The position numbers and the translations under genes are program-made. From Actinoplanes xinjiangensis (GTDB taxonomy: Bacteria > Actinomycetota > Actinomycetes > Mycobacteriales > Micromonosporaceae), in assembly GCF_003148685.1 (NCBI RefSeq), contig NZ_QGGR01000025.1, forward strand, positions 1 to 64,000: a DNA stretch of 64,000 bases. Reading direction: 5' to 3'. Shown in pieces: positions 96-64,000 of this stretch. The first letter of the stretch is position 1; each line of letters opens with the position of its first letter. The notes below the pieces were generated by a model. It saw only the letters and a list, made by a program, of their open reading frames with translations, was not told the origin of the DNA and made no database searches.

Positions 96-127
96 GAATC
101 GCCCCCGGCCTCTGCCGGGGGCGATTC
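96..127. terminator. Strong hairpin, bidirectional terminator candidate
   Basis: A perfect 14-bp inverted repeat (arm GAATCGCCCCCGGC) with the 4-nt loop CTCT. It lies just past the stop of the GGDEF-EAL gene on the minus strand. It also follows whatever plus-strand gene ends left of the window: two plus frames have stops at 79-81 and 90-92, so the first 90 bases may be a gene tail that I cannot identify. There is no long T run, as is usual in high-GC actinomycetes. Confidence 0.75.
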
Positions 128-160
128 GTCGTTCGGGCCGGTGAACGGTTCGCCTCCGGC

Positions 161-2777: not shown

Positions 2778-2851
2778 GCCCCCAAGATTGCCCGGCGGCG
2801 GCCGGATTAACCCCATGCCGGTCGCGACGGTGCCCGTGGCACGATCTCCGG

Positions 2852-36744: not shown

Positions 36745-37785
36745 TCAGCAGGCGCCGGGTCCGCCGTAGCGGAAGGTCCGGCCGCTCAGTTTGGTGACGT
36801 CGTAGTGGTTGCTGGTGCTGCGCACGTACATGTCGACGGCCGGGCCGTTGATGTAGCTGACGCTGCCGATGCGGGCCGACGAGGTGTCCGAGGCGCCGTG
36901 CAGGCCGTTGCCCATGTCGGTGCAGGGCGCGGCGGCGGCGGCGGCCACCTCGCCGAACACCTGGACCAGGCCGGTCTGGGTGAAGCCGCCGGACCACAGC
37001 GACGCCGGGTAGTAGCCGACCCATTCGGTGTCGTACGCGATCCACCAGGCGCCGTTGTAGTACTGGATGCCGAGTCGCTTGGTGACGTCCTGCGGGAGCG
37101 TGTCGCCGGGGCTGATGTTGGCGCTGTACTGGACGAAGCCGCAGCCGTTGTAGCAGGTGGGCTGGCCGTTGACCCAGTGGAAGACGAACAGGTGGGGGTC
37201 GTCGTCGCCGTTGACGACCTGGTCCACGTTCCAGCCGACCTCGACGATCTGGTTGCCGCTGCTGGACTGCACGGCCAGTTCGGCGAGCGTGTGGTAGTCC
37301 GAGGACGCCAGGGTGGGCTTGTTGATGGAGAAGTTGGCATAGGCGCCGTCAGTAACCGCGGCCTGGGACCCGACGTTGTAGTGGAAGTAGACGGTCTGCG
37401 AGGCCTGGTTCATGGTCGGTGGTCGCGGAGGGACGATCTCGGTCGGCTCCGACTTGAGAACGCCGGTGCGCGAGGAGCGCCCTTTGGGGGCGTACTCGTC
37501 GGTGGCCGGTTCGTCGTCGGGTGCGGCCGCGTCCAGACCGGACGATTGCAGCATCTCGCTGCTGGCGCCGTCGGTGCCGGTGTCGAGGCTGGTGGGCGCC
37601 GCCCCCCAGGGCAGTCTCGGTGGCGGAGCGGGTTCGGATTCCTCCTCCGGGGCCGGGGAGACGACGGTGGGGGCCGGTTCCGGTACCTCCTCCGCCCCTG
37701 CGTTGAGGGTGGAGGTGAGTCCGATCGAGCCGACCACTACGGCGACCAGGGCGGCAGCGAACGCTCCTCGGCGTGAATTCGACAC
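36745..37785 (-). CDS. Secreted neprosin-family (DUF239) protein
   Basis: A 346-aa protein: a signal peptide (residues 1-31), an acidic Pro/Glu-rich propeptide-like region (about 32-115), and a C-terminal domain with neprosin features (VEVGWNVDQVVNGDDDPHLF, CYNGCGFVQYS, NGAWWIAYDTEWVGYYPASL). Neprosins are glutamic prolyl endopeptidases first known from pitcher plants; two conserved Glu residues act in catalysis, and VEVGW and DTEWVGY carry candidates. Paired Cys are present. It would be an extracellular protease active after Pro. The activity is inferred. Confidence 0.8.
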   Translation of the reverse strand: MSNSRRGAFAAALVAVVVGSIGLTSTLNAGAEEVPEPAPTVVSPAPEEESEPAPPPRLPWGAAPTSLDTGTDGASSEMLQSSGLDAAAPDDEPATDEYAPKGRSSRTGVLKSEPTEIVPPRPPTMNQASQTVYFHYNVGSQAAVTDGAYANFSINKPTLASSDYHTLAELAVQSSSGNQIVEVGWNVDQVVNGDDDPHLFVFHWVNGQPTCYNGCGFVQYSANISPGDTLPQDVTKRLGIQYYNGAWWIAYDTEWVGYYPASLWSGGFTQTGLVQVFGEVAAAAAAPCTDMGNGLHGASDTSSARIGSVSYINGPAVDMYVRSTSNHYDVTKLSGRTFRYGGPGAC

Positions 37786-40990: not shown

Positions 40991-41089
40991 CGGCAAGCCC
41001 CGTTTCCCATGGCCATACCGTCGGCCGCCCGACCTCGGATGTGAGGTCTCCGCCCGGAACGACGGTGGTGCGCTCCGCGGTTTTCGCGT

Positions 41090-42517
41090 CTAGCGTCCTC
41101 CAGCCGTCGATTCCGGGAACAGGCGAACACGAGCCGCTAGATCGCCCGGCATCGAGGCAGGCCCGGCGAGGGAGTCGAGCACCTCGACGGCTCGGGCGGT
41201 GTCGCCGAGGACGGCGTACTGAACGGCCAGTTCCTCGTGAATCGCATACCTGTCGTCGGCGGGCAGGCCGTCTCGGCCACACGGTTCATCGACCAGTCGC
41301 CTGTACAGCGAGACGGCCGTTGCCCCCTCGCCCAGGTCGGCGTGTGCCCGCGCCTGCTCCCGTCGTAGGTGCAGGATCGCCGGATGTCCCTCGGGTAACC
41401 GGGCTTGCAGGATATCGAGCGCGACCGCGCATGCGGCGGCGGATCGGGCGGCGTCGCCCGCGGCGACCAGCGCCATGGCCAGGTCCCTGTGCAGCTCGGC
41501 GTGTTCGGGGCGATCGCGGCCCGGAGTCTGTGCGATGGCCTCCTCCAGGACCTCGACGGCCCTGTGGTGTTGCCCGTCTCGGCCGTAGCGTTCGGCGAGG
41601 GACCGAACCCGGCGCAGGTCGACGGGAGTCGAGTCCGACAGCGGCCTTCCCACCGTGCCGGCGTTCTCGGGTACGGCCGTGGCCGGTCGACGTCGGAGTT
41701 CGTTGTAACGCAGGATCGTCTCGGCAGGTGACCGGTTCACGAAGCCCACGAGCCGGGGAAGTGGTTCGAGTCGTGCGCTCAGCCGGTCGTACACCTCCGC
41801 GGCGGATCCGGGTCGGTGCTGCGGGGTCTCACTCGTCAGTTCCGCGGCCACGATCGCGAGGTCGTCGGGTATGTGCTCGTGTCCGGTGAGCAGGTCCTGT
41901 ATCAGGTGCCCCAGGGCATAGAGATCCGTGCGGGGTGTCGAGATCCCGAGGGTTCGCTCCGGCGCCTGGTAACGCGCCCGACCGATGACAAGACCGGGCG
42001 GGGTGAGTCTGGTGGACAGGCCGCCGTACAGGATGGCCGCGCCGAAGTCCACGACCTTGACGCCGCCGTCCGGACAGAGGATCACGTTGTCGGGGGCGAG
42101 GTCGCGGTGGATCAGTGAGGCCGCGTGGGTGTGCGCGAGTACAGCCGACACCTGTGTGGCGATGAACACCACCCAGGGCAGTGGCACGGGATGGACCTCG
42201 TCGATGAGTTCTCGGATCGTGGAGCCCTCCACCCACTCGGCCACGATGTACTCACGACGGCCGTCTCGGCCCACATCGTGGATCATCGGGATGCCCGGAT
42301 GGGTGACCCGGGCCGCCAGCCGAGCCTCCCGACGGAAACGACGTACGAACTCCTCCGCGACGTCGTCGTCGAGAAGGTCTCGATTGATCAGTTTGAGCGC
42401 CACGAACCGGTCCAGGCGGGTGTCGTAGGCGCGGTGGATCTCCCCCATGCCTCCTACGAGAGGTGCCTTGCTCAGTTCGTACCGGTCGGCGACCAATGCG
42501 CGCGCGGGACCGTTCAC
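41090..42517 (-). CDS. Ser/Thr protein kinase with TPR tail (defence island)
   Basis: A 475-aa soluble kinase. Kinase domain about 12-270: glycine-rich VGGMGEIHRAYD, Lys 42 in VALKLIN, HRDLAPDN at 137-144 and VVDFGAA with intact DFG. A TPR/helical tail follows (about 310-465; HRAVEVLEEAI). No transmembrane helix or PASTA repeats, so it is not a wall sensor. The GTG start at 42517 overlaps the stop of the kinase-helicase gene by GTGA, so output of the two is coupled. It is the last gene of a minus-strand operon (methylase-like, kinase-helicase, this gene). Likely a signalling part of the defence cluster; inference from context. Confidence 0.87.
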   Translation of the reverse strand: MNGPARALVADRYELSKAPLVGGMGEIHRAYDTRLDRFVALKLINRDLLDDDVAEEFVRRFRREARLAARVTHPGIPMIHDVGRDGRREYIVAEWVEGSTIRELIDEVHPVPLPWVVFIATQVSAVLAHTHAASLIHRDLAPDNVILCPDGGVKVVDFGAAILYGGLSTRLTPPGLVIGRARYQAPERTLGISTPRTDLYALGHLIQDLLTGHEHIPDDLAIVAAELTSETPQHRPGSAAEVYDRLSARLEPLPRLVGFVNRSPAETILRYNELRRRPATAVPENAGTVGRPLSDSTPVDLRRVRSLAERYGRDGQHHRAVEVLEEAIAQTPGRDRPEHAELHRDLAMALVAAGDAARSAAACAVALDILQARLPEGHPAILHLRREQARAHADLGEGATAVSLYRRLVDEPCGRDGLPADDRYAIHEELAVQYAVLGDTARAVEVLDSLAGPASMPGDLAARVRLFPESTAGGR

Positions 42518-45500
42518 CGGAGCAGCCTGTGGGTGATGAACGGGCTCGGCGTGCCGTGCCAGAACACCGCCAGCTCGTCGCGGGCCCTGGTGGCGGCGAC
42601 GAAGAGCAGGGACCGGGCCCGTTGGCGCTCCATGCGGAAACGGGTGGGGTCCTCGTCTCGCCAGGCGTAGACGGCCTGGTTCGGCACGAGTCCGTCGCTG
42701 ATGCCGGCCAGGATCATGCGCTGGTATTCCAGGCCCTTGAAGCGGTGCATCGTGCCGACGTGGACCCCGTCGGTCCGGCCGGGGCCGTCGGAGCCGATCT
42801 CGACCACGTCGACACCCGCGGTGGCGAGGTGGTCGACGACGTCGGCGGCGAGTCCACGGGTGGGGACGGCGACGGCGATGCCACCGGGCAGGTTCTGCCA
42901 GGCCCGGATCGTGTCCACGATCTTCGAGAGCTCCTGCTGCCAGGATTCGGCGGCCTGGAACGTCGGCCGTCCGCCCGCGAGCAGCGAGCGGTATCCGTCC
43001 AACGTCTCGTGGCCGTCGTCGAGGTCGTCGTAGGACTCGCCACTGACGAGTTCCAGGGAGGCGGCCAGGATCTGCCGGGTCGTCCGATAGCTCAGTGTCA
43101 GACGGTGGCTCCTGCCGCGTACGCCGATGCCGACGGTGGAGAGCGCCACCCTGTTCTCGTAGATGCGTTGGTGGGAGTCGCCCGCCACGAACAGGTCGTC
43201 GGGGCCGGCGGGGACGAGGGCGCGCAACAGTCTCCAGTGGGCGATGCTCAGGTCCTGTGCCTCGTCGACGATGACGTGGCGGTACCGCCCGGTGGTGCCC
43301 TGCTCCGCCAGACGGGCGGCTTGGACGGCCACCTGACGCAGGCTCCACATCCTCCGCTTCTGGAGCCAGGCCTCGAACTGCTCGGTGAGCGCCCAGACGG
43401 CGTCGCGTGCCTCACGGCTCAGCGGCCTGCCGCGGCCCAGCCGTCGGGCCCGGCGGTACTCGTCGCGGGTGCCGAGCATCTGGTTCAGGATCACGCCGTT
43501 CCACTCGTCGGCCAGGAACTGCGGGCTCCACCGAGTGTGGCCGACCTCGCCGAGGAAGGTGCGCCAGTGTTCGACGAGACGGTCGTCGTCGATCAGCTGT
43601 CGTGCTTCACCCGGTGTGCCTTCGCGGGCGATGTGCAGGGCCAGCCGGTCGATGTTGCGGACGTCGACCCGGTCGAGTAATGCCTGACCGCCCAGGGTGC
43701 GGAGCCGGGCGGCGAGATCGTTGGCCAGGTTGCGGTTGAAGGTCGTCAGCAGGATGGGCCGATCGTCACCGGCCGGCAGGCTCGCCGCCAGGTGTGCCAC
43801 ACGATGCAGTGCGACGACGGTCTTGCCCGTTCCGGGGCCGCCGCTGACCCTGGTCGGGCCGGACGTCTTCTTGGTCGCCAGCGCCCGTTGGGTCGGGTGC
43901 AGGAAGACCTGCCATTTGATGAAGCTCTCGTCCAGCACGGCGAGCAGCGCCTCGTCGTCGGTGGTCACCGGTGTCGTCGGCCGTGCCACGGCGGTCGCGA
44001 GGTCGTCCGGATCGACGGTGTCGTCGATCCGCACCGGCTCGGTGATCTGCTGCCGCACCTGGGCGACCGTCTTGCCGTCGTGCAGGGCGAACAGAACGTC
44101 GACGGTGAGCTGTGGCGCGTGTTCGACCAGTTGCAGCAACCGGTCCTCGTCGGTCAGGGTGCGGATGTGCGGCAACAGCAGTTCGGTCACTCCGAGGCTC
44201 AGGAGGACCTCGTCGTCGAAGGCGTCGAACAGCGGCTCGGCCGTCGGGGGGAGCAGACGGTTCAGGATGTCGTTGTCGACGGGCTCCAGATCGAGGACAT
44301 CGAGGCCACCGGTCACCCGGTTGACCCGGTAGGCGTACCGGCCGAGGTCGTCGTACACCTCGCGACGGTGTTTGACGTCGATCAACAGGTAATCGGCCGC
44401 CGTGACGTGCAGCAGGACGGCGCGGAGATCGGCGTTGACCCGGGCGGACCACAGGTTGTCGTCGCCTTTGAGTTGCTTGAGGCGAAGCCCTTGGGCGTGC
44501 GGATTGGCCCGGAACTTGTGTTGGAACTCGAAGACCGCGCCGATGTCGGAGCGGGACAGTTTCAGGATCTCCTTCTCGGCGCTGACCAGCACCCCTAGGT
44601 GAGCTCCGGTGTTCATCGACCCCTCGATCAGTCTGTCGGGACGGTGGTTGCCAGACGGACTCACCGACGGCGGCGGTGGCGCGCCGACCAGTTCGGTGGG
44701 TCCGGTGTAGCAGTCGGTCGAGTCCGTGGGTGGTGCGGTCACCGGGGCCGCCGTGGTGTGCGGTGTTCCGGTGGAGGTCTCCCGGACGAGTTCGGCGCGC
44801 AGGTCGCCGAACTCGTGGCCGCCCGCGGTCGCGAGGACGGTGAAACCGGCGACGACCTCCTTGGCGGTGGGACGCAGGCGGCCGTCGAACGAGAGCATGG
44901 CGCTGATCAACGGCATCAGGTCGGCCGGCAGGCCGGACAGATCCGGTGAACGGGTCGCGTCGGCGATCCAGGCCGCCACCGCGTGCGCCGGGCCGCTCGG
45001 ATAGGGATTGCGCCCGGTCGCGGCGAACAGCAGCGTCGCGCCCAGCGCGTAGACGTCGGTGGCGGGGGTCGGCGCCGACTCCCCGGTGGCCTGCTCGGGA
45101 GACATGTAGGCGACGGTGCCCATCGTCTGGCCGGTCTGCGTCAGGTGTTCATGGCCTTCGGAGAGTACGGCGATGCCGAGATCGATGATGCGGGGGCCGT
45201 CCGCGCCCAGCATGATGTTGGCCGGTTTCAGGTCTCGATGGATCAACCCGGCGTCCTGGATCGTGATCAGGCCCTCGGCCGCCAGCGCACCCAGCGCCGC
45301 GACGAGTCGCGGCGCCAACGGGCCTCGACCGTCGACGTGTTGCCGCAGCGTCCGGCCGGGCACGTACTCGACAGCCAACCATGGGCGGCGGGCGTCGATG
45401 TCCGCCCCGCGGAATCCGGCGACACGCAGACCCTGGGCCTGGCGCAGGTTGATGATCTCCGACGCGAACCGGCGGCGCATCCGCTCATCGCTGAGCAGGT

Positions 45501-45651
45501 GCGGCAGCAGGACCTTGACGGCGACATGTTCAGCCGTCCGTGAGCGGGCGAGATACACCCGACCCATCCCGCCGCTGCCGAGACACCCGATCACCTCGAA
45601 GCGGTGGTCGTCGCCGATCCACCGTGGGTCGTCTGACGTCAGTGCCCGCAA
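42514..45651 (-). CDS. Kinase-RelE/ParE-UvrD helicase fusion protein
   Basis: A 1045-aa three-part protein. Residues 17-275 form a Ser/Thr kinase (CLGSGGMGRVYLA, Lys 46, HRDLKPAN at 138-145, DLG instead of DFG at 157). A Thr/Pro linker (290-340) follows. Residues 355-440 match RelE/ParE-type toxins (LKLSRSDIGAVFEFQHKF, LRAVLLHVTAADYLLIDVKH). Residues 575-1040 are a UvrD/Rep SF1 helicase: GGPGTGKT at 604-611, DEAQD at 796-800, GDSHQRIY, LSYRTTRQI and the VGTMHRFKGLEY motif. A Met at about 346 is where stand-alone helicases of this type start, so the kinase looks appended. Expected role: nucleic-acid damage or phage-DNA response gated by phosphorylation. Confidence 0.87.
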   Translation of the reverse strand: MRALTSDDPRWIGDDHRFEVIGCLGSGGMGRVYLARSRTAEHVAVKVLLPHLLSDERMRRRFASEIINLRQAQGLRVAGFRGADIDARRPWLAVEYVPGRTLRQHVDGRGPLAPRLVAALGALAAEGLITIQDAGLIHRDLKPANIMLGADGPRIIDLGIAVLSEGHEHLTQTGQTMGTVAYMSPEQATGESAPTPATDVYALGATLLFAATGRNPYPSGPAHAVAAWIADATRSPDLSGLPADLMPLISAMLSFDGRLRPTAKEVVAGFTVLATAGGHEFGDLRAELVRETSTGTPHTTAAPVTAPPTDSTDCYTGPTELVGAPPPPSVSPSGNHRPDRLIEGSMNTGAHLGVLVSAEKEILKLSRSDIGAVFEFQHKFRANPHAQGLRLKQLKGDDNLWSARVNADLRAVLLHVTAADYLLIDVKHRREVYDDLGRYAYRVNRVTGGLDVLDLEPVDNDILNRLLPPTAEPLFDAFDDEVLLSLGVTELLLPHIRTLTDEDRLLQLVEHAPQLTVDVLFALHDGKTVAQVRQQITEPVRIDDTVDPDDLATAVARPTTPVTTDDEALLAVLDESFIKWQVFLHPTQRALATKKTSGPTRVSGGPGTGKTVVALHRVAHLAASLPAGDDRPILLTTFNRNLANDLAARLRTLGGQALLDRVDVRNIDRLALHIAREGTPGEARQLIDDDRLVEHWRTFLGEVGHTRWSPQFLADEWNGVILNQMLGTRDEYRRARRLGRGRPLSREARDAVWALTEQFEAWLQKRRMWSLRQVAVQAARLAEQGTTGRYRHVIVDEAQDLSIAHWRLLRALVPAGPDDLFVAGDSHQRIYENRVALSTVGIGVRGRSHRLTLSYRTTRQILAASLELVSGESYDDLDDGHETLDGYRSLLAGGRPTFQAAESWQQELSKIVDTIRAWQNLPGGIAVAVPTRGLAADVVDHLATAGVDVVEIGSDGPGRTDGVHVGTMHRFKGLEYQRMILAGISDGLVPNQAVYAWRDEDPTRFRMERQRARSLLFVAATRARDELAVFWHGTPSPFITHRLLR

Positions 45652-45677
45652 CGACTACCGCCCGCCGATCGACGTGG

Positions 45678-47474
45678 TCATCGGTCCGTGTCGAGCGTGC
45701 CCGCGAGCAGCCCTCCCACGATCATCTCGACGAACTCCTCCCCCAGGGCCGTCGCCCGTCGTAACCCGACGAGCATCTCCTGCAGGCGCCGGAAATACTC
45801 ACCGTAGAGGTGCTGCTCCCGCGGGGACAACGAGGGTATGCGCGCCCGCCGGACCTCGATGCGGGGGATCGAACCGGTGGAGACGACGCGTCGGAGGTTG
45901 GCCGAGGAGCTCAGGCAGCCCAGGATGAACCACGGATCCCAGTGATCCGGATTCGAGCGGATGCAGATGCGCCGGTTGTCGAGCGGCTCGCCGTCGCCGT
46001 CGTGGTCGACGACCTGCAGATCCGGGCGGGGACCGGTGGACGAGATCAGGACGTCGCCTGCGCGCAGGGGTGAGCCGGGTTCGGCGATGACGGCCAGCGA
46101 GCCCCTCTTCACCAGGTCTCCGACGGTCGTGTCGGCCACCGGGTCGTGTGAGGATCGGCGGGCCTGCACCGGCGGGAGCGATGCGGGCAGGGATGCCATC
46201 GCCGCAGCCAGTCGGTCCCGGGTCACGGCCACCTGTGTGAAGTCGGGGGCCCGCTGGGAGCCCGACACGTGGCGCGACGGGGTGAGGTCGACGTCTTCGC
46301 TGCTGAGACTGACCGGGTCGAGCCGGACGGCGTGGGCACCGATCTCGTCGGGCAGCGGGCGGCCGGCGAGGTGCGCGCGGACGGCGCCTCGGATCATCTC
46401 GGCGGCCTCCGGCCACGGCTGTTCTGCGTCGACCATCAGGACGGCCTGTGGCCCGTCGACCGCATCCGGCCTGCGCAGCATCCACAGGTGCCGCCGCATG
46501 TTGTACGGCGCGGTGACGCCGGTGGGTAGGGCTATCACGGCGCGGAGGGCGCCTCGGCGTAACAGCTCACGGCGCACCCGTCGCCCGGCCGGCCGTTCGG
46601 CGACGCCGGGGGGCAACAACATCCACACGTGCCCGCCCGGGTGCAGCCGTGCCAGCGCGTGCTGTATCCAGGCGAGCTCGGGCTCACTGCGCGGTGGTAG
46701 GGAGTACTCCCATCGGAGGTCCCGGGCGAGTTCCTCGTAGGGCCAGCCGCCGGCGTTGGGCGGGTCACTGACGACGATGTCGACGCGGACGTCGGCGAAG
46801 GCGTCGACGACGAGGTCGCCGCGGCGCACCTCGACCCGGGTCGGGCGGTCGACGGCGGCGGCCAGGCGGGCGCGGGCTATCGCGACGAGGTCGTCGTCGG
46901 CGTCCTGGGCGATCACGCGTGCGGCATGACGGGCGATGGCGGCGTGTACGAGGACACCGGTGCGGCAGGCCGGGTCCATGACGGTCGACCCGTGTGGTTG
47001 CGCGAGTTCGACGACGAGCGCCGCGACCTCGGCGCTCGTCGATCGCCCGCCGGCGCCGCGCCGGTCGCGAAGATCGACGAAGCGGGTGGCGAGCGCTTCC
47101 AGGACGGTGTCGGTGCCGATCTCCGCGGCGATGGCCCGTATCTCGGCGGCGACCTGCGCGTAGGGTCCCGTGGCCGGCTCGGGTTCGAGGAGGAGCCGCA
47201 CGATCGCGGCGACGGCGTCGTCGGAGTCCATCGACGCGCGCTGCAGCACGAGGTGGAGACGGTCGACGTCGGTCCGAGTGGGCATCCGGCCGTTGGCCTC
47301 GAGCCACACCTCGATTTCCGCGAGGGGGAACGTCGGGCTCGACACGCTGCCGCCGACGGGTTTGGGGAAGTCCGGGTGTCGCTTGCGCCAGTTGCTCACC
47401 GCTGCCCGACTGACGCCCGCCAGACGTGCGATGTCACCGGCGGTCACTTCGCCCCCATGTTTCACCCTGTCCAC
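45678..47474 (-). CDS. HTH-bearing N6-methyltransferase-like protein, catalytic motifs altered
   Basis: A 598-aa protein. N-terminal helix-turn-helix (11-30; TAGDIARLAGVSRAAVSNW), an N6-adenine methyltransferase-like core (about 140-330) and a C-terminal HsdS-like half recognition domain (about 440-590; IPRIEVRRARIPSLSPREQ). Motif I reads DPACRTG (167-173) where active enzymes have DPACGTG/GSG. Motif IV reads SDPPN (236-240) where NPPY/F is usual. It may therefore bind DNA without methylating it. GTG 47474 or GTG 47465 (GGGGG seven bases upstream). First gene of the minus-strand operon, divergent from the helicase operon. Position recalls DrmMI of class 1 DISARM. Confidence 0.82.
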   Translation of the reverse strand: MDRVKHGGEVTAGDIARLAGVSRAAVSNWRKRHPDFPKPVGGSVSSPTFPLAEIEVWLEANGRMPTRTDVDRLHLVLQRASMDSDDAVAAIVRLLLEPEPATGPYAQVAAEIRAIAAEIGTDTVLEALATRFVDLRDRRGAGGRSTSAEVAALVVELAQPHGSTVMDPACRTGVLVHAAIARHAARVIAQDADDDLVAIARARLAAAVDRPTRVEVRRGDLVVDAFADVRVDIVVSDPPNAGGWPYEELARDLRWEYSLPPRSEPELAWIQHALARLHPGGHVWMLLPPGVAERPAGRRVRRELLRRGALRAVIALPTGVTAPYNMRRHLWMLRRPDAVDGPQAVLMVDAEQPWPEAAEMIRGAVRAHLAGRPLPDEIGAHAVRLDPVSLSSEDVDLTPSRHVSGSQRAPDFTQVAVTRDRLAAAMASLPASLPPVQARRSSHDPVADTTVGDLVKRGSLAVIAEPGSPLRAGDVLISSTGPRPDLQVVDHDGDGEPLDNRRICIRSNPDHWDPWFILGCLSSSANLRRVVSTGSIPRIEVRRARIPSLSPREQHLYGEYFRRLQEMLVGLRRATALGEEFVEMIVGGLLAGTLDTDR

Positions 47475-47507
47475 CCCCTTGTCCGGAGGCTACCCGGCGC
47501 GGCAGCG

Positions 47508-47566
47508 TTGACAAAATTCGTCGCCAACAAGTGCCGTTGACATTGTTCACGGCAACGGTTTACGGT
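47508..47566 (+). promoter_or_regulatory. Candidate promoter of the plus-strand defence operon
   Basis: TTGACA occurs at 47508-47513 and again at 47537-47542. The second is followed after 18 bases by TACGGT (47561-47566). CCGTTG (47534-47539) and CAACGG (47553-47558) form an inverted repeat over the -35 to spacer, a possible operator. The region serves divergent operons; the 160-base leader to the ATG at 47733 contains further G/C inverted repeats (TCCGCCG/CGGCGGA) and no ORF I trust. Confidence 0.5.
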
Positions 47567-47732
47567 CTGAGGGCGGCACAGCCGAGACGTCCGCCGGTCG
47601 GACCTCTCGGACCGCCCGGACGGCGGAGTCGTCATCACCACGAACGCCGCTCACGTCCGGATAATTGAGTGCCGCACTACCACTCCCACAGCTATCGCGT
47701 GACTGTGCCCCAACCGGCTCGAGGCGGGACTG

Positions 47733-57100: not shown

Positions 57101-57371
57101 GGCCCGGGTCGCCGCCGTCGCCCCGGACGAGGTCGAGGGGACTCGGGACGACCTGGAATGGGTCCTGGTGCGCTGGCAGGAACTGCTCGACCGCAACGAC
57201 AGACTGGTCTACGACCAGCGCAGACCGAAGTTCGACACCAAACCCCGGTCGGAGTACGCGGCCCTGCTTCGCAATTTCGACGACGACGATCTACCGCACT
57301 CGTTCCCGACGATGAACAGCCTCCGTGACGTCGACGTCGAGACGAACATGATCCCGCGGGAAGGACGATGA
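54189..57371 (+). CDS. drmA: DrmA-like SF2 helicase
   Basis: A 1060-aa protein. The N-terminal part (1-430) is of unknown fold. The helicase core follows: LWFPTGGGKTEAYLGLV (about 442), IIQDELHLISGPLG with DELH box (about 648), STATIRRA, and motif VI EYIQSTSRVGRR (about 870). A zinc-ribbon-like CAWCG...CGNTGC lies at about 556-588. The DELH box and the TGQPQTTAEYIQSTSRVGR stretch are those of DISARM DrmA, where DrmA with DrmB binds single-stranded or overhanging DNA. Its ATG overlaps the previous stop by 8 bases and its stop overlaps the DrmB start (ATGA). Assignment rests on motifs and neighbour. Confidence 0.85.
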   Translation: MSDFTEHFAFRDTLTQRLVEDVLGPAEEHEILTDPPATTYLTGVLYPQRDHAGAVEESAEKDFDLGGAETDVDDQPDSGVSLANVQNPSSMGLSFAVHPRATTATITVTAATYQPVDEAGNPVEAQMEAARSIEDSKVRWRRLPVEADVTIDLRPGSGRTYEVVPGLEIRARVRPVGDRRDATAVTVTLVNNHPAAGLVLRDQWCFFQCGLRVDTDPRQPTIIEQTRPAVDDDDETLLAAMLYHHAPTFATGHGCAVDWDPQHREADEPDEPRSVTAVWSSFTPRYDVLLAESNPEIDTTGLRMIDLARGDDATVIATLRALIGGYRVWVEDRETEAAGMADTPFGGVAVDQAGQCRGAYERMDAGIDLLAEDPQVMRAFRLANHAMAVQRARTVMLKDGDRDEDLSLGRWYPFQLGFLLLCLRGIADPDHADRRVADLLWFPTGGGKTEAYLGLVAFTVFLRRIRNAELGAGVTILMRYTLRLLTLQQFERATTLICAMERLRQQQDDMPGDEISIGMWVGRSATPNHLEDAEAALKKLRAGNTLATENPVQLRRCAWCGVDIDAFNYSVDHTAGRLIVACGNTGCFFESGLPVHLIDAAVYRHRPTLIIATVDKFAQMAWKEEPAALFNRSDGTPAGTPPPELIIQDELHLISGPLGTLVGLYETVLDIAAQRPKVIASTATIRRAQDQGRALFDRDVHQFPPSGLDSRDSWFAVQAPPERKPSRRYIGLFAPGSSQASLLIRAYAALLHHAATVEGKDEVRDAYWTLLGYFNSLRLLASAELQVNDDVVKRIQLLTDEPEPPELTTSELTSRVAASEIPKRLRDLDTRFPHVDALQVVLATNMISVGVDVDRLGLMAVTGQPQTTAEYIQSTSRVGRRYPGLVVMLYNAARSRDRSHYERFRSYHSALYRQVESTSVTPFSARARDRALHAVLVSAARVMHREARPNGAAKDLPHLEPKLRELSERILARVAAVAPDEVEGTRDDLEWVLVRWQELLDRNDRLVYDQRRPKFDTKPRSEYAALLRNFDDDDLPHSFPTMNSLRDVDVETNMIPREGR

Positions 57372-59164
57372 GGATGCCTGGACGCTCACGGACTCCGCGT
57401 ACCGGCCGCAGTGCCGCCGGCGCCGCCCCGAAACCGATCGGCAGTGCACGCCGAGCGCAGATGATCACGACGTACGGCGTGGGTTCCATGATCGCCATCG
57501 AGGACGCGTCGTGGATCGTCGCCGGCCTCGAGGATTGGCGGCCCAACACCGAACAGCAGGTCTACGAACCGCGTCTGCAGCGGGCTCTGGGTGTCGACTA
57601 CCTGTACCTGCCGCCGGCGGAGAGCGCCCATTTCACGGCGGGCCTCCGACGGTTCCCCGAGTTCTACTCCTGTCAGGGATCAGGCAACTGCAACCTGCTG
57701 CAGCCCTATTGGAAGTTCCGGGCCACCGGTTCGGACTGTCCGTGCGGCGAGGGCACCCTCATCCCGTCGCGTTTCGTCGTCGCCTGCGACGACGGCCACC
57801 TCAACGACTTCCCCTACCGGGCCTGGATCCACCGCGGCGCCAAGAGCGGACCGTGTGACGGCGACATGCGGATGATCACCACCGGACGTACCGCCTCACT
57901 GCGGTCGATCCAGCTGGTCTGCGGTTGTGGAGCCAAGGGGTCGATGGAGGGGGCGTTCCGTCGCAGCGAGCTGCGGCAGCTGGGCATCAGGTGCTACGGC
58001 GGCCGGCCGTGGCTGCGTGGCGCTCCGAAGATCACCGGCTGTGAGCGGCTTCCTCGGACTCTGCAGCGTGGTTCTTCGGCGGCCTGGTTCGGCATCGTCC
58101 GGTCCTCGCTGGCCATCCCGCCCTGGTCCACGGGTCTGCAGCGGATCATCGAGTCGCGTTTCGAGATGTGGCGGGGCGAGGACGACGCCACGATCGAGCG
58201 GCAGGCGGAGAAGGCCAAACTCGTCAAGGGGTCGGTGACCGCGCAGCACATCATCGATGCGGTCCGCCGTCGCGAGGCCCTGGAGAAGGGCAATCCGCTG
58301 CCCGATCAGGATCTCGATCTCTCGCTGAAGCGTGAGGAGTACGAGCAGCTCTGTTCGCCGACGGTCGAGGAGGAGACCGACGAGAAGCCGGACTTCGAAT
58401 GTCGGCCCGCCGATGCGGTGCCGGTCCCACAGCTGGATCAGGTCATGCTCGTCACCCGGCTGCGAGAGGTGCGGGTGTTGCAGTCCTTCACCCGGGTGGA
58501 GCCGCCGGGTCCGGCGGACTCCGAGTCCCGGCGTGCCGCCCTGTCGGCCGAGGAGACGGACTGGCTGCCGGCGATGGAGGTGGTCGGCGAGGGTGTGTTC
58601 CTGCGGCTGTCGGAGAGCCGCCTCGCCGAGTGGGAGGCACGCCCGGAGGTGCAGAAGCGGGCGAACGGCATCATCGGCAACCACCAGAGGCTGCTCGATC
58701 GCCGTGCCGAGGCCGCCGGCAAGACCGCACCGGTCTCCTCCGTCACGGCGCGCTCGATCATGATCCACACGCTGGCGCACCTGCTGGTCAACGAGTGGAG
58801 TCTGGACTCCGGCTATCCGGCGTCGGCCATGCGCGAGCGGCTCTACACCTCCCCGGACATGGCGGGCATCCTGATCTACACCGCCACCAGCGACTCCGCC
58901 GGCAGCCTCGGCGGCATCGTGCGGCAGGGTGAACCACAACGGCTGGAACGGACCCTGGCGGCCGCGTTGCAACGGGCGGAGTGGTGCTCGACCGACCCCC
59001 TCTGCATGGAGGCGGACGCCGCCGGTGCCGACAGCCTCAACCTGGCGGCCTGTCACGCCTGCAGTCTGCTGCCGGAGACCAGCTGCGAGCACAACAACAC
59101 GCTGCTGGACCGCGGACTGGTCCTCGGCTGGCCCGCCGAACCCGACTCGGGCTTCTTCTCCTGA
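57368..59164 (+). CDS. drmB: DrmB-like DUF1998 protein
   Basis: A 598-aa protein. The start (ARRAQMITTYGVGSMIAI, DASWIVAGLEDW) is the DrmB signature. Zinc-type Cys groups follow (FYSCQGSGNCNL, DCPCGEGTL, CDDGHLNDFPYRAWIHRG). The C-terminal DUF1998 domain (about 450-590) has MIHTLAHLLVNEW, YTATSDSAGSLGG and ACHACSLLPETSCEH. In DISARM, DrmB pairs with DrmA. ATG 57368 overlaps the DrmA stop; ATG 57374 is a near alternative. Last gene of the first plus-strand unit: a hairpin follows. Confidence 0.88.
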   Translation: MRMPGRSRTPRTGRSAAGAAPKPIGSARRAQMITTYGVGSMIAIEDASWIVAGLEDWRPNTEQQVYEPRLQRALGVDYLYLPPAESAHFTAGLRRFPEFYSCQGSGNCNLLQPYWKFRATGSDCPCGEGTLIPSRFVVACDDGHLNDFPYRAWIHRGAKSGPCDGDMRMITTGRTASLRSIQLVCGCGAKGSMEGAFRRSELRQLGIRCYGGRPWLRGAPKITGCERLPRTLQRGSSAAWFGIVRSSLAIPPWSTGLQRIIESRFEMWRGEDDATIERQAEKAKLVKGSVTAQHIIDAVRRREALEKGNPLPDQDLDLSLKREEYEQLCSPTVEEETDEKPDFECRPADAVPVPQLDQVMLVTRLREVRVLQSFTRVEPPGPADSESRRAALSAEETDWLPAMEVVGEGVFLRLSESRLAEWEARPEVQKRANGIIGNHQRLLDRRAEAAGKTAPVSSVTARSIMIHTLAHLLVNEWSLDSGYPASAMRERLYTSPDMAGILIYTATSDSAGSLGGIVRQGEPQRLERTLAAALQRAEWCSTDPLCMEADAAGADSLNLAACHACSLLPETSCEHNNTLLDRGLVLGWPAEPDSGFFS

Positions 59165-59177
59165 CGAAACCGCACCG

Positions 59178-59211
59178 GAGGGCACGGACCGTTGACCGGC
59201 GCCGTGCCCTC
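59178..59211. terminator. Hairpin splitting the defence operon
   Basis: GAGGGCACGG and CCGTGCCCTC are perfect inverted copies with a 14-nt loop, 14 bases past the DrmB stop. The rest of 59165-59335 has no ORF that I trust and may hold a promoter for the next unit (TTGACC at 59192 has no good -10). Confidence 0.7.
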
Positions 59212-59335
59212 GGGCACCGTAGACCGGTGCCGGTTCGGTGCAACTTCGTCACTTCCACCGGCGGGACTCAACACCGCCCGGCGACCGACCGAACCGGCAC
59301 GAGCACCCGTCGTCGTCCTTCGGTTGAGGAGTCCT

Positions 59336-61273
59336 GTGACGCAGTCTGCGGCATGGCAGTGGAATAGGCAGAGCCCCGCATACGGCAACTTCGGCAACGC
59401 CAATCAGTGGACGGTCAACGCGGGTCTGGTGTCGTTGGCCCGCGAGAGCGCGCAGAACACCAACGACGCGCGCGCCGGTTCGGAGGCCGCCGAACTCGTC
59501 TACAGCTTCATCCGCCTCACCGGTGCCGCACGTGACGCCTTCCTGGCGACGCTCGGCTGGTCCGACCTCAAGGCGCACCTGCAGGCCATGGGTGAGGCGG
59601 CTCGCGGCGCGGTGACGGCCGGTCAGATCCGGGCCGGGCTGGAGGCCTCCGAGCAGACGGACTCGTTGGTCCTGCTGCGCATCGCCGACTACGGGTGTCG
59701 GGGCCTCACCGGACCCGAGTTCGCCGAAGACGGCCTCTCCCCCGACGACTTCGGCAACTTCATCAAGTTGTGCAGGCTCGACCTGTTCAGCGGCAAGGAC
59801 AAGGCCGCGGGCGGCTCGTTCGGTCTCGGCAAGGCCGTCTACTGGCGGTTCTCCCGGTTGCAGACCGTGCTGTTCAACTCGGTGCTGGCCCCGTCCGACG
59901 CGGTCGACGGCTTCACCCAGAACCGGGTGTTCGGCGTCAACCAGGGCGTGCTGCACCAATACCGCGACATGGGTTACGAGGGCCGGGGTTACTTCGGCCG
60001 GGCCTATCCCAACGGTCACGTCGGCTCGGTCTGGAACGATTTCGAGCTGGTCGACGCACTGCACCTGAACCGTGCCGACGCCCGGCCGGGGACCACCGCG
60101 CTGCTGTTGGGCTTCTACGACCCGGATCAGCCGCAGCGGGGTCTGAACGGTCCGGAGGAGCTGACCGAGCTGGCCCATGATCTGCGCGAGGGCGTCGAGG
60201 AGAACTTCTGGCCGCTGCTGACCCGCGGTGGCCTACGGGTACGCATTGAGGTGATCGACAACGACACGGTCCTGTCCGAGAAGGCGGTCGATCCGGAGGA
60301 GACGTACACCGAACTCGTCCGGGCCCTGCGCCGTTTCGACGCCGGCAAGATCGACGACGAGCTCAGCGGTCCGGACACGGTGGTGGTCCGGGATGTGCCG
60401 GTCACGGTGCCGCGGCGCCGCACGGGTGATCGGCACCAGTCGTTCGTCCATCAGGCGAAGCTCGTGGTGACCCTGTCCGACGATCAGAAGGACACTCTGG
60501 AGAACCGCGTCTGCCTGCTGCGCCGGCCCGAGATGATCGTGCAGACCCTCGATCGACCCTTCGACGGCCACACCTACCACGCGTTCCTGCTCGCCGGTGC
60601 GGCGATCCACCCGGCCGCGCCCACCGCCGAGCAGCTGTGGGCCGACGACTTCCTGCGGTTCGCCGAGCCGCCCGCACACGACCGCTGGCTGCCCGGCATC
60701 GGACGCCGACAGGCCTCACAGGCGAACCTGACCGCGCACTATCTCGCCCCGTGGGTGCCCAATCTGCAAGGCATCGAGAAGGGTGTCGCCGCGGCCCTGC
60801 ACGGTCTGTTCGGGGCACCACCGGCACGGACCGGCGCGCCGCCGGAGTCGCTGCTGCGTCATCTGCGTTTCCTGCGGTCGGAGAGCGGCTCCGGTGGAGC
60901 CGGTGGCGCCCCGCACAAGCCGGAGGTCGACCTCACCGAGTGGCGGGTCGAGGACGGGCGGTGGAACGTGCGCTTCACCGTCCGCGCCAAGAACCGTCCA
61001 CAAGGCTGGCACCTGCGGCCGGTCCTCGCGTTCGTCGGCCTCGACGGCAGACGTGCGGTGGTCGACTGGGATTCGTTGCTCGTCGAGGACGGTGCCGGCC
61101 GGTTGGTCGACGGCGGGCTGCGTATCGAGGCGACGCCGCGCGGCCGATTCGCCAAGGTGACACTCCATGGTCGATCGACCGGTGACCTGCCGATCCCGGC
61201 GGAGGAGGCGGCCGTCGAGGTGATCCTTCAGAAGCCCGGCCCGCTGCTCACCCCGAACGACGAGGACGCCTGA
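59336..61273 (+). CDS. GHKL ATPase (defence island)
   Basis: A 645-aa protein with an N-terminal GHKL ATP-binding fold: N-box ESAQNTNDA (37-45), G1 IADYGCRGLTG (about 117) and glycine lid AGGSFGLGKAVYW (about 158-170). The remaining 450 residues hold a second transducer-like domain and a C-terminal beta-rich part after about 530, of unrecognised family. GTG 59336 is chosen for its GAGGAG five bases upstream and because residues before it in the open frame look non-coding. Its stop overlaps the next ATG by one base (TGATG). With the sacsin-type helicase, this is the second GHKL ATPase in the cluster. Role unknown. Confidence 0.83.
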   Translation: MTQSAAWQWNRQSPAYGNFGNANQWTVNAGLVSLARESAQNTNDARAGSEAAELVYSFIRLTGAARDAFLATLGWSDLKAHLQAMGEAARGAVTAGQIRAGLEASEQTDSLVLLRIADYGCRGLTGPEFAEDGLSPDDFGNFIKLCRLDLFSGKDKAAGGSFGLGKAVYWRFSRLQTVLFNSVLAPSDAVDGFTQNRVFGVNQGVLHQYRDMGYEGRGYFGRAYPNGHVGSVWNDFELVDALHLNRADARPGTTALLLGFYDPDQPQRGLNGPEELTELAHDLREGVEENFWPLLTRGGLRVRIEVIDNDTVLSEKAVDPEETYTELVRALRRFDAGKIDDELSGPDTVVVRDVPVTVPRRRTGDRHQSFVHQAKLVVTLSDDQKDTLENRVCLLRRPEMIVQTLDRPFDGHTYHAFLLAGAAIHPAAPTAEQLWADDFLRFAEPPAHDRWLPGIGRRQASQANLTAHYLAPWVPNLQGIEKGVAAALHGLFGAPPARTGAPPESLLRHLRFLRSESGSGGAGGAPHKPEVDLTEWRVEDGRWNVRFTVRAKNRPQGWHLRPVLAFVGLDGRRAVVDWDSLLVEDGAGRLVDGGLRIEATPRGRFAKVTLHGRSTGDLPIPAEEAAVEVILQKPGPLLTPNDEDA

Positions 61274-62223
61274 TGACCGTTCGCTACCCGTGGCCGACCT
61301 TCACGGCCCCGCTCAGATGTCGATTGACCGACGTCCGGCTCGACGGCCGGCCGCTGCCGGCGGATCTCATCGACGACGGCCACTACCGGGTCCGGTTGGA
61401 CGGCATGTCGACGTGGGAGTCGTTCGAGTGCGAGGTCGTCGTCACGACGGACGAGTCGATGCCGGCCGGTGTCGACCGGGTGACCGGCTACGTCATGGTC
61501 GCCTCGTCGGCGACCAACACACGACTCCCGTTCCCGTTGCGGGCCGAGGGGAACTCGCTGATCGGCCGGATCATCGTCGCCCGCGGTGCCGTGGCCGGTG
61601 GCTTCACCGTCGCGGCGGAGGTCGGTGGCGAGGTGGCCGGGCGTCGACGGGTCGTGGGCGCGAGCGATCCCTGGACCGTCGTCCTGGATCGCCGGGACGC
61701 GCCGGTGCCGCCCGGTGCTCCGCCGTTCGTGATGTCGTGGGAGGACTTCACCTCGCCGGGCGCACCCGCAGCGGCTCGGCAGACCCCGGACGCCCTCGCG
61801 TTCATGGACGTCACTGGTGAGCCGCGGTTGTGGCTGAACTCGGGTGTGCCCGGTCTACAGGCGCTCCTGGACAACAACCACGCCAAGCTGGAACGCCGGC
61901 GGCTGCGTGACATCCTCAGCACGACGATCGCCCGTAACGCCACCTCGGCGCTGTTCCGGGCCGCCGCCGCCGAGGTGGTCGCATACGGCGACGAGCCACC
62001 CCAGCCACCGACCACCGCGCTGTACCGGCAGGTGTGCCAGGCCGTCGCGGACCAGATGATCGGCATCGGCGGCGTCGAGGAACTCTACGAACAGTTGGTC
62101 GCCCAGCGTGACGACCCGCTCGGCAACGCCGACCTCTGGCGCCGCATCGACGCGGCCGTCGACACACTGACCGGTTCCCTCGATGCGCTGACCACCGCGT
62201 CCCAGGAGGTGTCCCATGGCTGA
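61273..62223 (+). CDS. Uncharacterised defence-cluster protein
   Basis: A 316-aa protein, not recognised. The N-terminal half (1-165) is beta-rich with repeated short strands (YRVRLDGMSTWESFECEVVV, VAGGFTVAAEVGGEV), suggesting an immunoglobulin- or jelly-roll-like fold. The C-terminal half (about 185-310) is helical (HAKLERRRLRDILSTTIA). No catalytic motif or signal peptide. Its start overlaps the GHKL gene stop and its end overlaps the next gene by 8 bases. It may be the obligate partner of the GHKL ATPase. Confidence 0.78.
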   Translation: MTVRYPWPTFTAPLRCRLTDVRLDGRPLPADLIDDGHYRVRLDGMSTWESFECEVVVTTDESMPAGVDRVTGYVMVASSATNTRLPFPLRAEGNSLIGRIIVARGAVAGGFTVAAEVGGEVAGRRRVVGASDPWTVVLDRRDAPVPPGAPPFVMSWEDFTSPGAPAAARQTPDALAFMDVTGEPRLWLNSGVPGLQALLDNNHAKLERRRLRDILSTTIARNATSALFRAAAAEVVAYGDEPPQPPTTALYRQVCQAVADQMIGIGGVEELYEQLVAQRDDPLGNADLWRRIDAAVDTLTGSLDALTTASQEVSHG

Positions 62224-63052
62224 ACCGATCCTGTGCCGGTTCAAGCACCGGATCTCGGTGGATCTCCGCGACCGGCTCGTCCGGCGGGTCGAGCAGCCGG
62301 ACGAGCATCACGAACCGATCCGCCGCCCGGACGGATCGACCATCGATCTGACCGTCGTCGATGTGCTGATGGGACGGTTCAGCGACCGGTTCGCCGATCT
62401 CGACCAGCGCGGCGACCGGGCGGCCAGCGACCGGTGGTTGGCGCCGCGATTGCACTACGCCCTGCGCCTGACCCGCGCCGAGGCCGCCGACCGTGATCTG
62501 TGGGCCTGGCTCGCGGTCCGCTACAGCGATTACGTGGCGTGGCGGTGGGCCGGCGCCGGAGAGAAGCCGACCGAGGACCGCTGGAACGGCCAGATCAACA
62601 AGCAGGCGCTGATGCGGCTGTGGTGGGGTGCCGAACTGTTCCGCAACGGACCCGACTACTCACCGGTCGAACGTGCCTTCTCCCGCCAGGACGTGCCGCA
62701 TAACCTGCTGCACCGCACGCTCGTCCGGTGCCGTTCGCTGGCGGTGGCCCTCGTCGACGACCTCGTACCGGCTGATCAGGAGGTCGTCGGCAGCTCCCGG
62801 GAGATCCGCGACCTGGCTCGGGTGTTGAACCTGGTGATGGCCGGGAGTCCTCCGGAACTGGAGACCGATCTGCAGCAGGACGACCACCGGGCCTACGACG
62901 CGTGGGTCCGGGAGTTCGTCCTCGTACCGGCCGACTGGGATCTGATCCCGCGAGGCCCGGTGGCCGACGACACGACCCCGTCGTCGTTGGCCGGCGGGCG
63001 GGCGATCACCGAACGCGGCCGGCGGTACGCCGCCGTGAGCACCGAGACGTAG
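62216..63052 (+). CDS. DUF6339-like protein
   Basis: A 278-aa, largely helical protein with a Trp-rich centre (LWAWLAVRYSDYVAWRW, ALMRLWWGAELFRNGPDY). It resembles the family I recall as DUF6339, found in actinobacterial defence clusters; I cannot confirm the number here. No enzyme motif. Last gene of the second plus-strand unit: the stop lies inside a small hairpin and faces the Vsr gene. Confidence 0.75.
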   Translation: MAEPILCRFKHRISVDLRDRLVRRVEQPDEHHEPIRRPDGSTIDLTVVDVLMGRFSDRFADLDQRGDRAASDRWLAPRLHYALRLTRAEAADRDLWAWLAVRYSDYVAWRWAGAGEKPTEDRWNGQINKQALMRLWWGAELFRNGPDYSPVERAFSRQDVPHNLLHRTLVRCRSLAVALVDDLVPADQEVVGSSREIRDLARVLNLVMAGSPPELETDLQQDDHRAYDAWVREFVLVPADWDLIPRGPVADDTTPSSLAGGRAITERGRRYAAVSTET

Positions 63053-63060
63053 CGCGTCTC
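63044..63060. terminator. Small hairpin between convergent gene ends
   Basis: GAGACG and CGTCTC flank a 5-nt loop that contains the TAG stop of the DUF6339-like gene. The Vsr gene ends at 63059 on the other strand. Short, but positioned for two-way termination. Confidence 0.45.
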
Positions 63061-63517
63061 AGCCGGAGGAGTCCCGTGGTGACGGGGGACGACGCAGGTC
63101 GGCGACCGACTCGACGATGCGGTCGGCGGCCTGCTCGACCGCCTCGTGCTCCCAGATCCGCAAGACGGTCCACCCGGCCTCGGTGAGCTTGATGTTGGTC
63201 TCGAGATCCCGGCGCCGGTTCGTGGCCACCTTCTCGGCCCAGAAGCCGGCGTTGGTCTTGGCGACGGTGTGATGAGTCGGACAGCCGTGCCAGAAGCAGC
63301 CGTCGAGGAAGACGGCCAGCCTGATCCGGGGGAACACCAGATCGGCGGTCCGGCGGACGACCTTGATCGGACGTCGGTTCACGAAATACCGCAGGCCCCG
63401 GGAGTGCACCGCGCGACGCAGCGCGAGTTCCGGCTTGGTGTCACGGCCGGTGTTCGCCTGCATCGACTTCCGGACACCGGCCGACGAGGCCCAAGAGCTT
63501 TCGGACATGCGTTCCAT
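63059..63517 (-). CDS. vsr: Vsr-type very short patch repair endonuclease
   Basis: A 152-aa Vsr nuclease (ATG 63508 is an alternative start). Family hallmarks: DTKPELALRRAVHSRGLRY, the metal/zinc-site stretch AVFLDGCFWHGCPTHH, AEKVATNRRRD and GWTVLRIWEHE. Vsr nicks T:G mismatches that arise when 5-methylcytosine deaminates and so protects cells carrying a C5 methylase. It is divergent from the cytosine methyltransferase, 44 bases away, the usual Dcm-Vsr pairing. Confidence 0.93.
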   Translation of the reverse strand: MERMSESSWASSAGVRKSMQANTGRDTKPELALRRAVHSRGLRYFVNRRPIKVVRRTADLVFPRIRLAVFLDGCFWHGCPTHHTVAKTNAGFWAEKVATNRRRDLETNIKLTEAGWTVLRIWEHEAVEQAADRIVESVADLRRPPSPRDSSG

Positions 63518-63561
63518 CTCACCCGTGTGGCGGCCTTGCTCAAAGACCAGGGGGGACTAAC

Positions 63562-64000
63562 ATGTCGCGGGTGAGTGACCGCCTGAGCATGATCGACCTG
63601 TTCGCCGGATGCGGCGGTATGACCGTCGGATTCCGCCGTGAGGACTTTCGCCCGGTGATGTCCGTGGAGTGGGATCTCGCTGCCGCCGCTACGTATGCGG
63701 CGAATTTCGGTGAGTCACACACTCATTGGGGTGACATCACGCTCATCCCCGACGACCAGATCCCGCAGGCGCAGGTGATCATCGGCGGTCCGCCGTGCCA
63801 GGGCTTCTCGAACCTGGGCAGCAAGGACGTCGACGATCCGCGTAACAAGCTGTGGAAGGAGTATCTGCGGTTCGTCGTGCACGCGCGTCCGCAGGTGTTC
63901 GTCATCGAGAACGTCGAGCGGTTCTCCCGGGCCTCGGAGTTCCAGCTGCTGCTGGAGGAGGCCGACCACGGGATGCTCAAGGACTACACGCTCTCGCACG
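63562..64000 (+). CDS. DNA cytosine-5 methyltransferase, cut by window edge
   Basis: The first 146 residues of a C5-cytosine methyltransferase. Motif I MIDLFAGCGGMTVGF, motif IV GGPPCQGFSNLG with the catalytic Cys in PCQGFS, and motif VI FVIENVERF are all intact. The target-recognition region and C-terminus lie beyond the window. ATG 63562 with AGGGGGG upstream. In class 2 DISARM a C5 methylase (DrmMII) marks self DNA; here it would be the only clearly active methylase seen in the cluster. Confidence 0.93.
   Translation, partial: MSRVSDRLSMIDLFAGCGGMTVGFRREDFRPVMSVEWDLAAAATYAANFGESHTHWGDITLIPDDQIPQAQVIIGGPPCQGFSNLGSKDVDDPRNKLWKEYLRFVVHARPQVFVIENVERFSRASEFQLLLEEADHGMLKDYTLSH

Follow-up and report, generated by a model that had tools for sequence, protein, structure and literature searches.

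What kind of system is built around the DISARM proteins DrmA and DrmB when their usual partners are missing? DrmAB is usually discussed as part of class 1 or class 2 DISARM, the former with the gene order drmD-drmMI-drmA-drmB-drmC. The question is raised by a gene cluster of Actinoplanes xinjiangensis (genome of 10.8 Mb), which we analyzed in the first 64,000 nucleotides of contig NZ_QGGR01000025.1 (contig C25 of genome G000; this whole stretch is hereafter the window). In this cluster, DrmA and DrmB share a series of four overlapping genes, here called the engine, with a GHKL-helicase fusion (GH) and a UvrD-type helicase. The engine is followed by three genes, M33A, U and DUF6339, here called the M33 trio. 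On balance, the cluster is probably a DISARM-family DNA-defense system of a separate class, consisting of two modules, the engine and a putative sensor/marking module in which the trio is accompanied by neighboring genes for a C5-cytosine methylase and a Vsr nickase.

The DrmAB engine and the M33 trio are conserved together

The original prediction, made from the sequence of the window, placed DrmA and DrmB in one overlapping operon with a sacsin-GHKL-DEAH helicase and a UvrD helicase, and all four genes are indeed found there. The profile scores of DrmA and DrmB had been named beforehand as the check on which this prediction could fail. DrmA matched the PADLOC DrmA model with an E-value of 2.7e-239 and scored 984.3 bits with NCBIfam DISARM_DrmAS (NF038325), thus passing the cut-off of 950. 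DrmB matched its PADLOC model at 1.5e-65 and passed the cut-off of 240 for NCBIfam DrmB_fam (NF038324) with 471.9 bits. Furthermore, the sole PDB match of the DrmA profile at 1e-10 was DrmA of DISARM.

When named genomes were searched with the GH alignment, at least 422 relatives were obtained, of which the best 79 loci, all actinobacterial by title, were kept. Together with the window and the loci of genomes G029, G078, G025, G056 and G002, they make up 85 sequences, 84 of them distinct because the G002 locus is the same as L086 (G and L denote genomes and loci of the relatives compared). The window and G029 are not independent, as they have ~35 kb of the island in common, at 87%. Genes were called on all 85 sequences and the resulting 1390 proteins were clustered. 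The four engine genes were all called in 79 of the 85 sequences, which had been chosen by GH alone, and in 75 of the 79 named loci. Conservation of the gene order across actinomycetes, which the original prediction had proposed as a check, was borne out: all seven genes, engine and trio, are present in 66/85 sequences, and the four engine genes occur without the trio in 11/85. Six sequences have an incomplete engine; two of these (L089 and L093) stop at contig ends, L128 has a DrmB visible by tblastn, L114 carries GH only, with the contig ending 2.5 kb after it, and a different helicase occupies the UvrD position of G025 and G056. Four-base overlaps recur at the junctions GH/UvrD (46/82), UvrD/DrmA (58/79), DrmA/DrmB (37/78), M33A/U (45/70) and U/DUF6339 (59/71). 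Most relatives have the trio divergent from GH, unlike the window, where it lies behind DrmB in the same orientation.

The distances between partner proteins follow those between the corresponding DrmA proteins across 66 loci, with correlation coefficients (r) of 0.974 for GH, 0.967 for UvrD, 0.947 for DrmB, 0.926 for M33A, 0.921 for U and 0.885 for DUF6339; for the Vsr-type endonuclease, r was 0.714 (50 loci). None of 500 permutations gave a value as high for any partner. In a DrmA tree of 62 rows, a quick tree with several long branches flagged, DrmA of 38 GH-UvrD loci (37 called loci picked by hand and G142) form one clade with a Shimodaira-Hasegawa-like approximate likelihood ratio test (SH-aLRT) support of 100, separate from a group that includes eight class 1 rows (97). 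Class 2 is sampled thinly in this tree, by three loci with a DrmE_C-like gene, and the one scanned lies below the Pfam cut-off. Rows from Nocardia, Rhodococcus, Amycolatopsis and Hamadaea are nested in the Streptomyces-rich part of the tree, which fits transfer of the cluster as a block, and the cluster has probably spread laterally. Its distribution is patchy, with GH in 6/67 genomes of the genus and 5/396 of a phylum sample, and M33A in 6/298 of an order sample. Among plasmids, 13 records matched but none covered 80% of GH, and 260 phage records gave, among the 10 matches listed, helicase-domain matches only. Of seven loci from contigs filed as viral, one, L172 (IMGVR_UViG_3300003747_000017), has a GH homolog of almost full length (41%) near the end of its contig.

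As a portable module, the M33 trio is also found alongside a different helicase engine, a point that the original prediction had missed. Could engine and trio be two systems rather than one? Several points weigh against a single system. The loci were selected by GH, as the best 79 of the 422 relatives, so that the association rate is biased upward. In the genus sample, which was not picked by neighborhood, GH lies upstream of DrmA with one gene between them in 7/10 copies, and in the phylum sample the same arrangement is found in 3/5 full-length copies, a sixth match (G487) covering the helicase part only. By gene call, 15/85 sequences lack at least one trio gene (70/85 are complete), and three of the six order-sample genomes with M33A have no DrmAB adjoining. 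Vertical descent alone could yield part of the correlations, whose r values stand without a housekeeping baseline, and the C5 methylase of the window has an NaeI partner and may serve only NaeI. That two separate systems are involved is possible, yet we consider it doubtful, as trio and engine occur together in those 66 loci with distances correlating at 0.89-0.93, and stay together through rearrangement and across families.

Relation to DISARM and other DrmAB systems

If engine and trio form one system, is this system a DISARM? The original prediction saw no DrmC, and this was confirmed on a larger scale. A profile built from eight comparison DrmC proteins matched none of the 1390 proteins of the 85 loci at an E-value of 0.01; in the control, it recovered 8/8 left-out members at 1.6e-35 or better, and those of L161, L162 and L171 were found too. 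DrmC was also absent from positions 40,001-79,999 by profile and tblastn and from the PADLOC matches listed for the window proteins. A tblastn search with a single DrmC sequence proved too insensitive, detecting DrmC in 1/7 class 1 loci (L170), and was superseded by the profile. DrmD and DrmMI, searched for by tblastn with queries from contig C36 of the same genome, were found in 0/85 loci, whereas the same queries matched 8/14 comparison loci. Neither DrmD nor DrmE is among the PADLOC matches listed for the window proteins, DrmE having been looked for in the window and not in the other 84 sequences.

Contig C36 itself carries a class 1 DISARM (L054/L055), with DrmD, DrmMI and DrmC recognized by PADLOC and DrmA and DrmB by tblastn; its DrmMI is split over two frames by gene call. 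A type I-like methylase gene, encoded on the other strand, separates DrmMI from DrmA in this set, a RelE-UvrD gene lies beside DrmD, and a PtuA-like gene is also present.

The cluster of the window shares with class 1 DISARM a DrmA and a DrmB that pass the curated cut-offs, a conserved contact valine (V1296 in Serratia) and, judged by eye, an acidic stretch at the trigger-loop position. It differs in having no DrmC, DrmD or DrmMI, in the GH and UvrD genes of the same operon, in the M33 trio and in its separate DrmA clade. Because DrmC and DrmD were searched for and not found, we do not claim membership in DISARM proper. If an ordinary DISARM of class 1 or 2 had shed DrmC together with DrmD or DrmE and borrowed its neighbors, this would explain why DrmA and DrmB pass curated DISARM models, and the available text of PMC9142583 describes one component, from the context the DrmC nuclease, as often missing from annotated operons. 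However, a DrmC profile with 8/8 controls found nothing in the 85 loci, the DrmD and DrmMI queries matched in comparison loci only, and DrmA branches as a separate clade whose partners are different and constant (class 2 being represented by only three DrmE_C-like loci), which makes such a reduced DISARM very improbable.

Relatives contain still other DrmAB layouts: GH-NERD/SF1-DrmA-DrmB (G025, G056, G100 twice, G359 and G072), NERD/SF1-DrmA-DrmB-UvrD (G022 and G020) and DrmE_C-like-NERD/SF1-DrmA-DrmB (G084, G079 and G061; loci L048, L052 and L166), the last with no match to the DrmC profile. Pfam confirms NERD in G359, G020 and G084, and the DrmE_C match of G084 falls below the cut-off (23.4 versus 27). 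Thus, an SF1 helicase, with or without NERD, is a common companion of DrmAB here. In L140 (positions 1-3200), a second DrmB and a UvrD370-like gene lie beside the GH cluster, so that parts of two DrmAB layouts adjoin.

The GHKL ATPase (M33A motifs), C5 methylase and Vsr of MORC/paraMORC systems (PMC2292703, available text) and of systems labeled Mza by PADLOC are present; the difference is that the module is here joined to DrmAB. For the SF2 helicase typical of such systems there was no match at positions 40,001-79,999, and it lies beside 15/85 loci; other SF2 helicases (GH and DrmA) do occur in the cluster. The words 'DUF1998' and 'sacsin' are absent from the available text of PMC2292703. With ARMADA type II, as described in the available text of PMC12458937, the cluster shares a YprA-family protein and, in its accessory operon, a RelE-UvrD (ArmD-like) protein. 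In ARMADA, a BrxHII-like helicase and a PglX-like methylase accompany a YprA protein that is fused to a Vsr nuclease, whereas DrmA and DrmB are separate here, DrmA has no nuclease domain match, and no best match in the cluster is to BrxHII or PglX; 'sacsin', 'GHKL' and 'kinase' do not occur in the main text of that paper as available. M33A and DUF6339 weakly match PDC-M33A and PDC-M33C of the PADLOC candidate PDC-M33. The accessory kinase and N6 methylase resemble mad6 and mad2 of MADS, at NCBIfam scores short of the cut-offs (MAD6, 88.7 of 460; MAD2, 34.3 of 720). The N-terminus of GH matches TmtA of PADLOC, presumably the Tiamat system, at 4.8e-43, but the best match spans only residues 10-429 of 1552, leaving the helicase half and DrmAB outside. 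In the literature searched, which covered few subscription papers, we found no paper on 'PDC-M33' or 'DUF6339' and no wording for a class 3 or III DISARM, only 'DISARM-like' in five papers.

A methyltransferase homolog without the catalytic cysteine

The relatives also show a feature that the original prediction had missed: most carry a methyltransferase homolog without the catalytic cysteine. C5-methyltransferase homologs are encoded in 80/85 loci, 63 of which have two. Of these 143 homologs, 77 keep the PCQ motif and 66, from 65 loci, do not (for example, L074:3033-4040). At the alignment position of the catalytic cysteine, 61 of the PCQ-less sequences have Arg, four have Ser and one has a gap, and the Glu of motif VI, in the customary numbering of C5 methylase motifs, is kept in 65/66. 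QxRxR is found in 1/66 PCQ-less versus 77/77 PCQ homologs and GNA of the last motif in 15/66 versus 77/77, with one pattern applied to both groups. The cofactor motif GxGG is present in 60/66 PCQ-less and 76/77 PCQ homologs. Thus, with GxGG kept and the catalytic cysteine gone, cofactor binding may survive in the PCQ-less proteins, and catalysis should be lost.

The PCQ-less homolog tracks the M33 trio. Among 84 sequences, it is present in 64/70 loci with M33A versus 1/14 without, this one exception (L108) encoding U and DUF6339. A less strict count by tblastn on 91 sequences, corrected for G232, which has an M33A match, gave 67/75 versus 1/16. The M33A loci without it in this count are L103, L105, L120, G029, G025, G296, G232 and the window. 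In the genome of the window, matches to the PCQ-less homolog fell only on its own NaeI-side methylase, so the dead homolog is absent from the window, and the boldest reading therefore concerns the family more than the window. Wordings for an inactive cytosine methyltransferase were not found in the literature search described above, with its limited coverage of subscription papers.

Gene content and surroundings of the cluster

The second unit (GHKL ATPase, an unknown protein and a DUF6339-like protein) and the Dcm/Vsr pair are present as originally predicted (Table 1).

Table 1. Genes of the cluster, with positions in the window
Feature	Coordinates	Strand	Remarks
KT, Ser/Thr kinase with TPR tail	41090..42517	-	~475 aa by gene call (open frame 752 aa)
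KU, kinase - RelE-like - UvrD fusion	42514..45651	-	domain matches
N6-adenine DNA methylase	45678..47474	-	N6_Mtase domain; weak N-terminal helix-turn-helix matches
GH, 1552 aa	47733..52391	+	N-terminal sacsin/TmtA-like GHKL ATPase fused to C-terminal RadD-like DEAH helicase; first gene of the engine
UvrD-type SF1 helicase, 602 aa	52388..54196	+	NERD-SF1 helicase takes its place in sister systems
DrmA, YprA-family helicase, 1060 aa	54189..57371	+	PADLOC and NCBIfam
DrmB, MZB/DUF1998-type partner of DrmA, 598 aa (somewhat less with a later start)	57368..59164	+	PADLOC and NCBIfam
M33A, GHKL ATPase, 645-693 aa depending on start	59192..61273	+	PADLOC candidate PDC-M33A, 2e-15
U, 316 aa	61273..62223	+	predicted beta-rich N-terminal half and helical C-terminal part
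DUF6339 protein (PDC-M33C-like), 278 aa	62216..63052	+	Pfam DUF6339 passed; PADLOC PDC-M33C 6e-6 (weak); model mostly helical
Vsr-type nicking endonuclease	63059..63517	-	DGCFWH[GR]C motif in 56/58 family members
C5-cytosine methyltransferase, 368 aa	63562..64668 (window ends at 64000)	+	PCQ and ENV present

Junction distances, derived from the coordinates of open reading frames and gene calls, are -4 bp for KU/KT and GH/UvrD, -8 bp for UvrD/DrmA and U/DUF6339, and -1 bp for M33A/U. DrmA/DrmB is at -4 bp from the first ATG, and the gene caller starts DrmB 93 bases later. The gap from DrmB to M33A is 27 or 171 bases, depending on the start, and that from the N6 methylase to KU is 26 bases. In GH, the sacsin ATP-binding domain scored 64.9 bits (NCBIfam cut-off 50), the ResIII and Helicase_C domains were also matched, and the GHKL and helicase motifs are kept across a 9-row alignment. 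The GSxGxGK-type motif of M33A is present in 70/70 family members. Strict patterns gave lower counts (M33A N-box 34/70 and G1 11/70; GH Walker A 80/88; UvrD motif VI 45/82; DrmA motif VI 72/82), which we took as limits of the patterns, judging from alignments rather than case-by-case checks. The Pfam scan matched nothing in M33A or U, and U had no PADLOC match either. The M33A profile matched only helix-turn-helix chains in PDB, and M33A of L074 has an additional N-terminal helix-turn-helix; the PDC-M33A match is weak, and any placement of M33A within the GHKL families is tentative.

The C5 methylase of the window, located beyond Vsr, matches DrmMII at 1.2e-42 and, more strongly, DruM2 at 5.4e-114. 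Because the gene for the NaeI restriction enzyme follows it, outside the window, the Vsr/Dcm pair may belong to the NaeI system.

The divergent operon on the left contains, as predicted, a methylase, whose C-terminal half we read as specificity-like, a kinase-UvrD fusion and a kinase-TPR protein. The RelE label given to the fusion is weak: a 10-row profile matched only PDB 2khe, a 'Toxin-like protein' that we take to be RelE, at 0.0099. The claim that at least ten genes were built to work together, which would make this operon part of the core, did not hold. KU is found in 11/85 loci only, and its RelE-UvrD part gave 30 matches in 25/100 relatives, of which 6 lie within ~20 kb of a DrmA match (G000:C25, G029, G002, G020:C146, G000:C36 and G011). 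The KU family lies directly behind DrmB in L067, L070, L120, L134, L139 and L140, and also beside two class 1 DISARM sets. The left operon is thus a frequent accessory neighbor, and its core status is rejected. In L170 (G020:C146), a kinase gene lies behind a class 1 DISARM, together with a RelE-UvrD gene that resembles KU of the window at 60%.

Left of the cluster lie genes for a Neprosin-domain protein (36745-37785) and a TPR-GGDEF diguanylate cyclase (frame 39434-40996). Past NaeI, a second, stand-alone GH paralog, 44% identical (L004:5842-10485; window coordinate ~65,841-70,484), has the neighbor x290 and no DrmAB adjoining; an x290-GH pair does precede UvrD-DrmA-DrmB in L106, L109, L119, L138 and L142. 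JetA-JetB-JetC genes (type 2 labels) follow beyond the second GH (L004:12579-19488). A tRNA scan of the window and L005 found none.

Proposed mechanism and implications

How might the two modules work together? According to the available text of PMC9142583, a trigger loop keeps DrmAB of Serratia autoinhibited; the complex binds to 5' overhangs, 5-methylcytosine reduces its ATPase activity, and V1296, with a proposed role in methyl sensing, is in contact with the base. V1296 aligns with the invariant valine of an SLRDV motif, V1048 in DrmA of the window. The acidic stretch at the trigger-loop position is a by-eye impression, for which a pattern found the flanks in only 11/38 GH-UvrD and 2/8 class 1 DrmA proteins. 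From the conserved valine, the behavior of Serratia DrmAB and the acidic stretch, we infer a methylation-gated DrmAB motor.

In the proposed scheme, which is drawn from homology, the C5 methylase would mark host DNA. On incoming DNA, DrmAB would load at single-stranded ends that lack modification, and 5-methylcytosine would hold it back, as Serratia DrmAB suggests. The two GHKL ATPases, by analogy with the MutL/MORC/sacsin family, would work as clamps or switches whose ATP-driven closing licenses the motors, and the RadD-like helicase of GH together with UvrD would, judging from their domains, unwind the DNA. Finally, and least certainly, because the engine has no recognized nuclease, a strand might be nicked by Vsr or a host nuclease. 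Sister systems place a NERD domain at the UvrD position.

Two proteins of the trio were considered as candidate nucleases, and no nuclease fold was found in their models. The model of U (pLDDT 85.5) gave 4 Foldseek matches with E-values of 0.001 or less but TM scores of ~0.2 or less, and that of DUF6339 (pLDDT 72.5) gave a best Foldseek match at an E-value of 0.97, a negative result that is not proof. DUF4420 was found near the loci in 0/10 relatives' genomes, a search without positive control and thus uninformative.

A housekeeping cluster for DNA repair or mismatch correction, in which GHKL, Vsr, UvrD and methylase would follow MutL/MutH/UvrD logic, would suit the repair-type GHKL, UvrD, Vsr and RadD-like domains and the lack of MutS/MutL in certain actinobacteria (PMC12892979, available text), but is very unlikely given the patchy distribution, probable lateral transfer, DrmAB homology and defense-island setting, with JetABC (type 2 labels) and the NaeI system adjoining.

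The original observation is thus confirmed and its interpretation partly supported: the cluster is probably related to DISARM but of a separate class, forming a hybrid with a MORC-type module. Another coherent DrmAB layout, in which GHKL proteins replace DrmD/DrmE and the canonical nuclease is absent, recurs in 75/79 named actinomycete loci. DISARM is thereby connected to MORC-type restriction systems, the presumed source of the eukaryotic MORC ATPases (PMC2292703, available text). Furthermore, the dead methyltransferase of the related actinobacterial clusters suggests an undescribed way to tell own from foreign DNA, and its conserved Cys-to-Arg change makes the self/non-self question directly testable: might a dead methyltransferase act as the reader?

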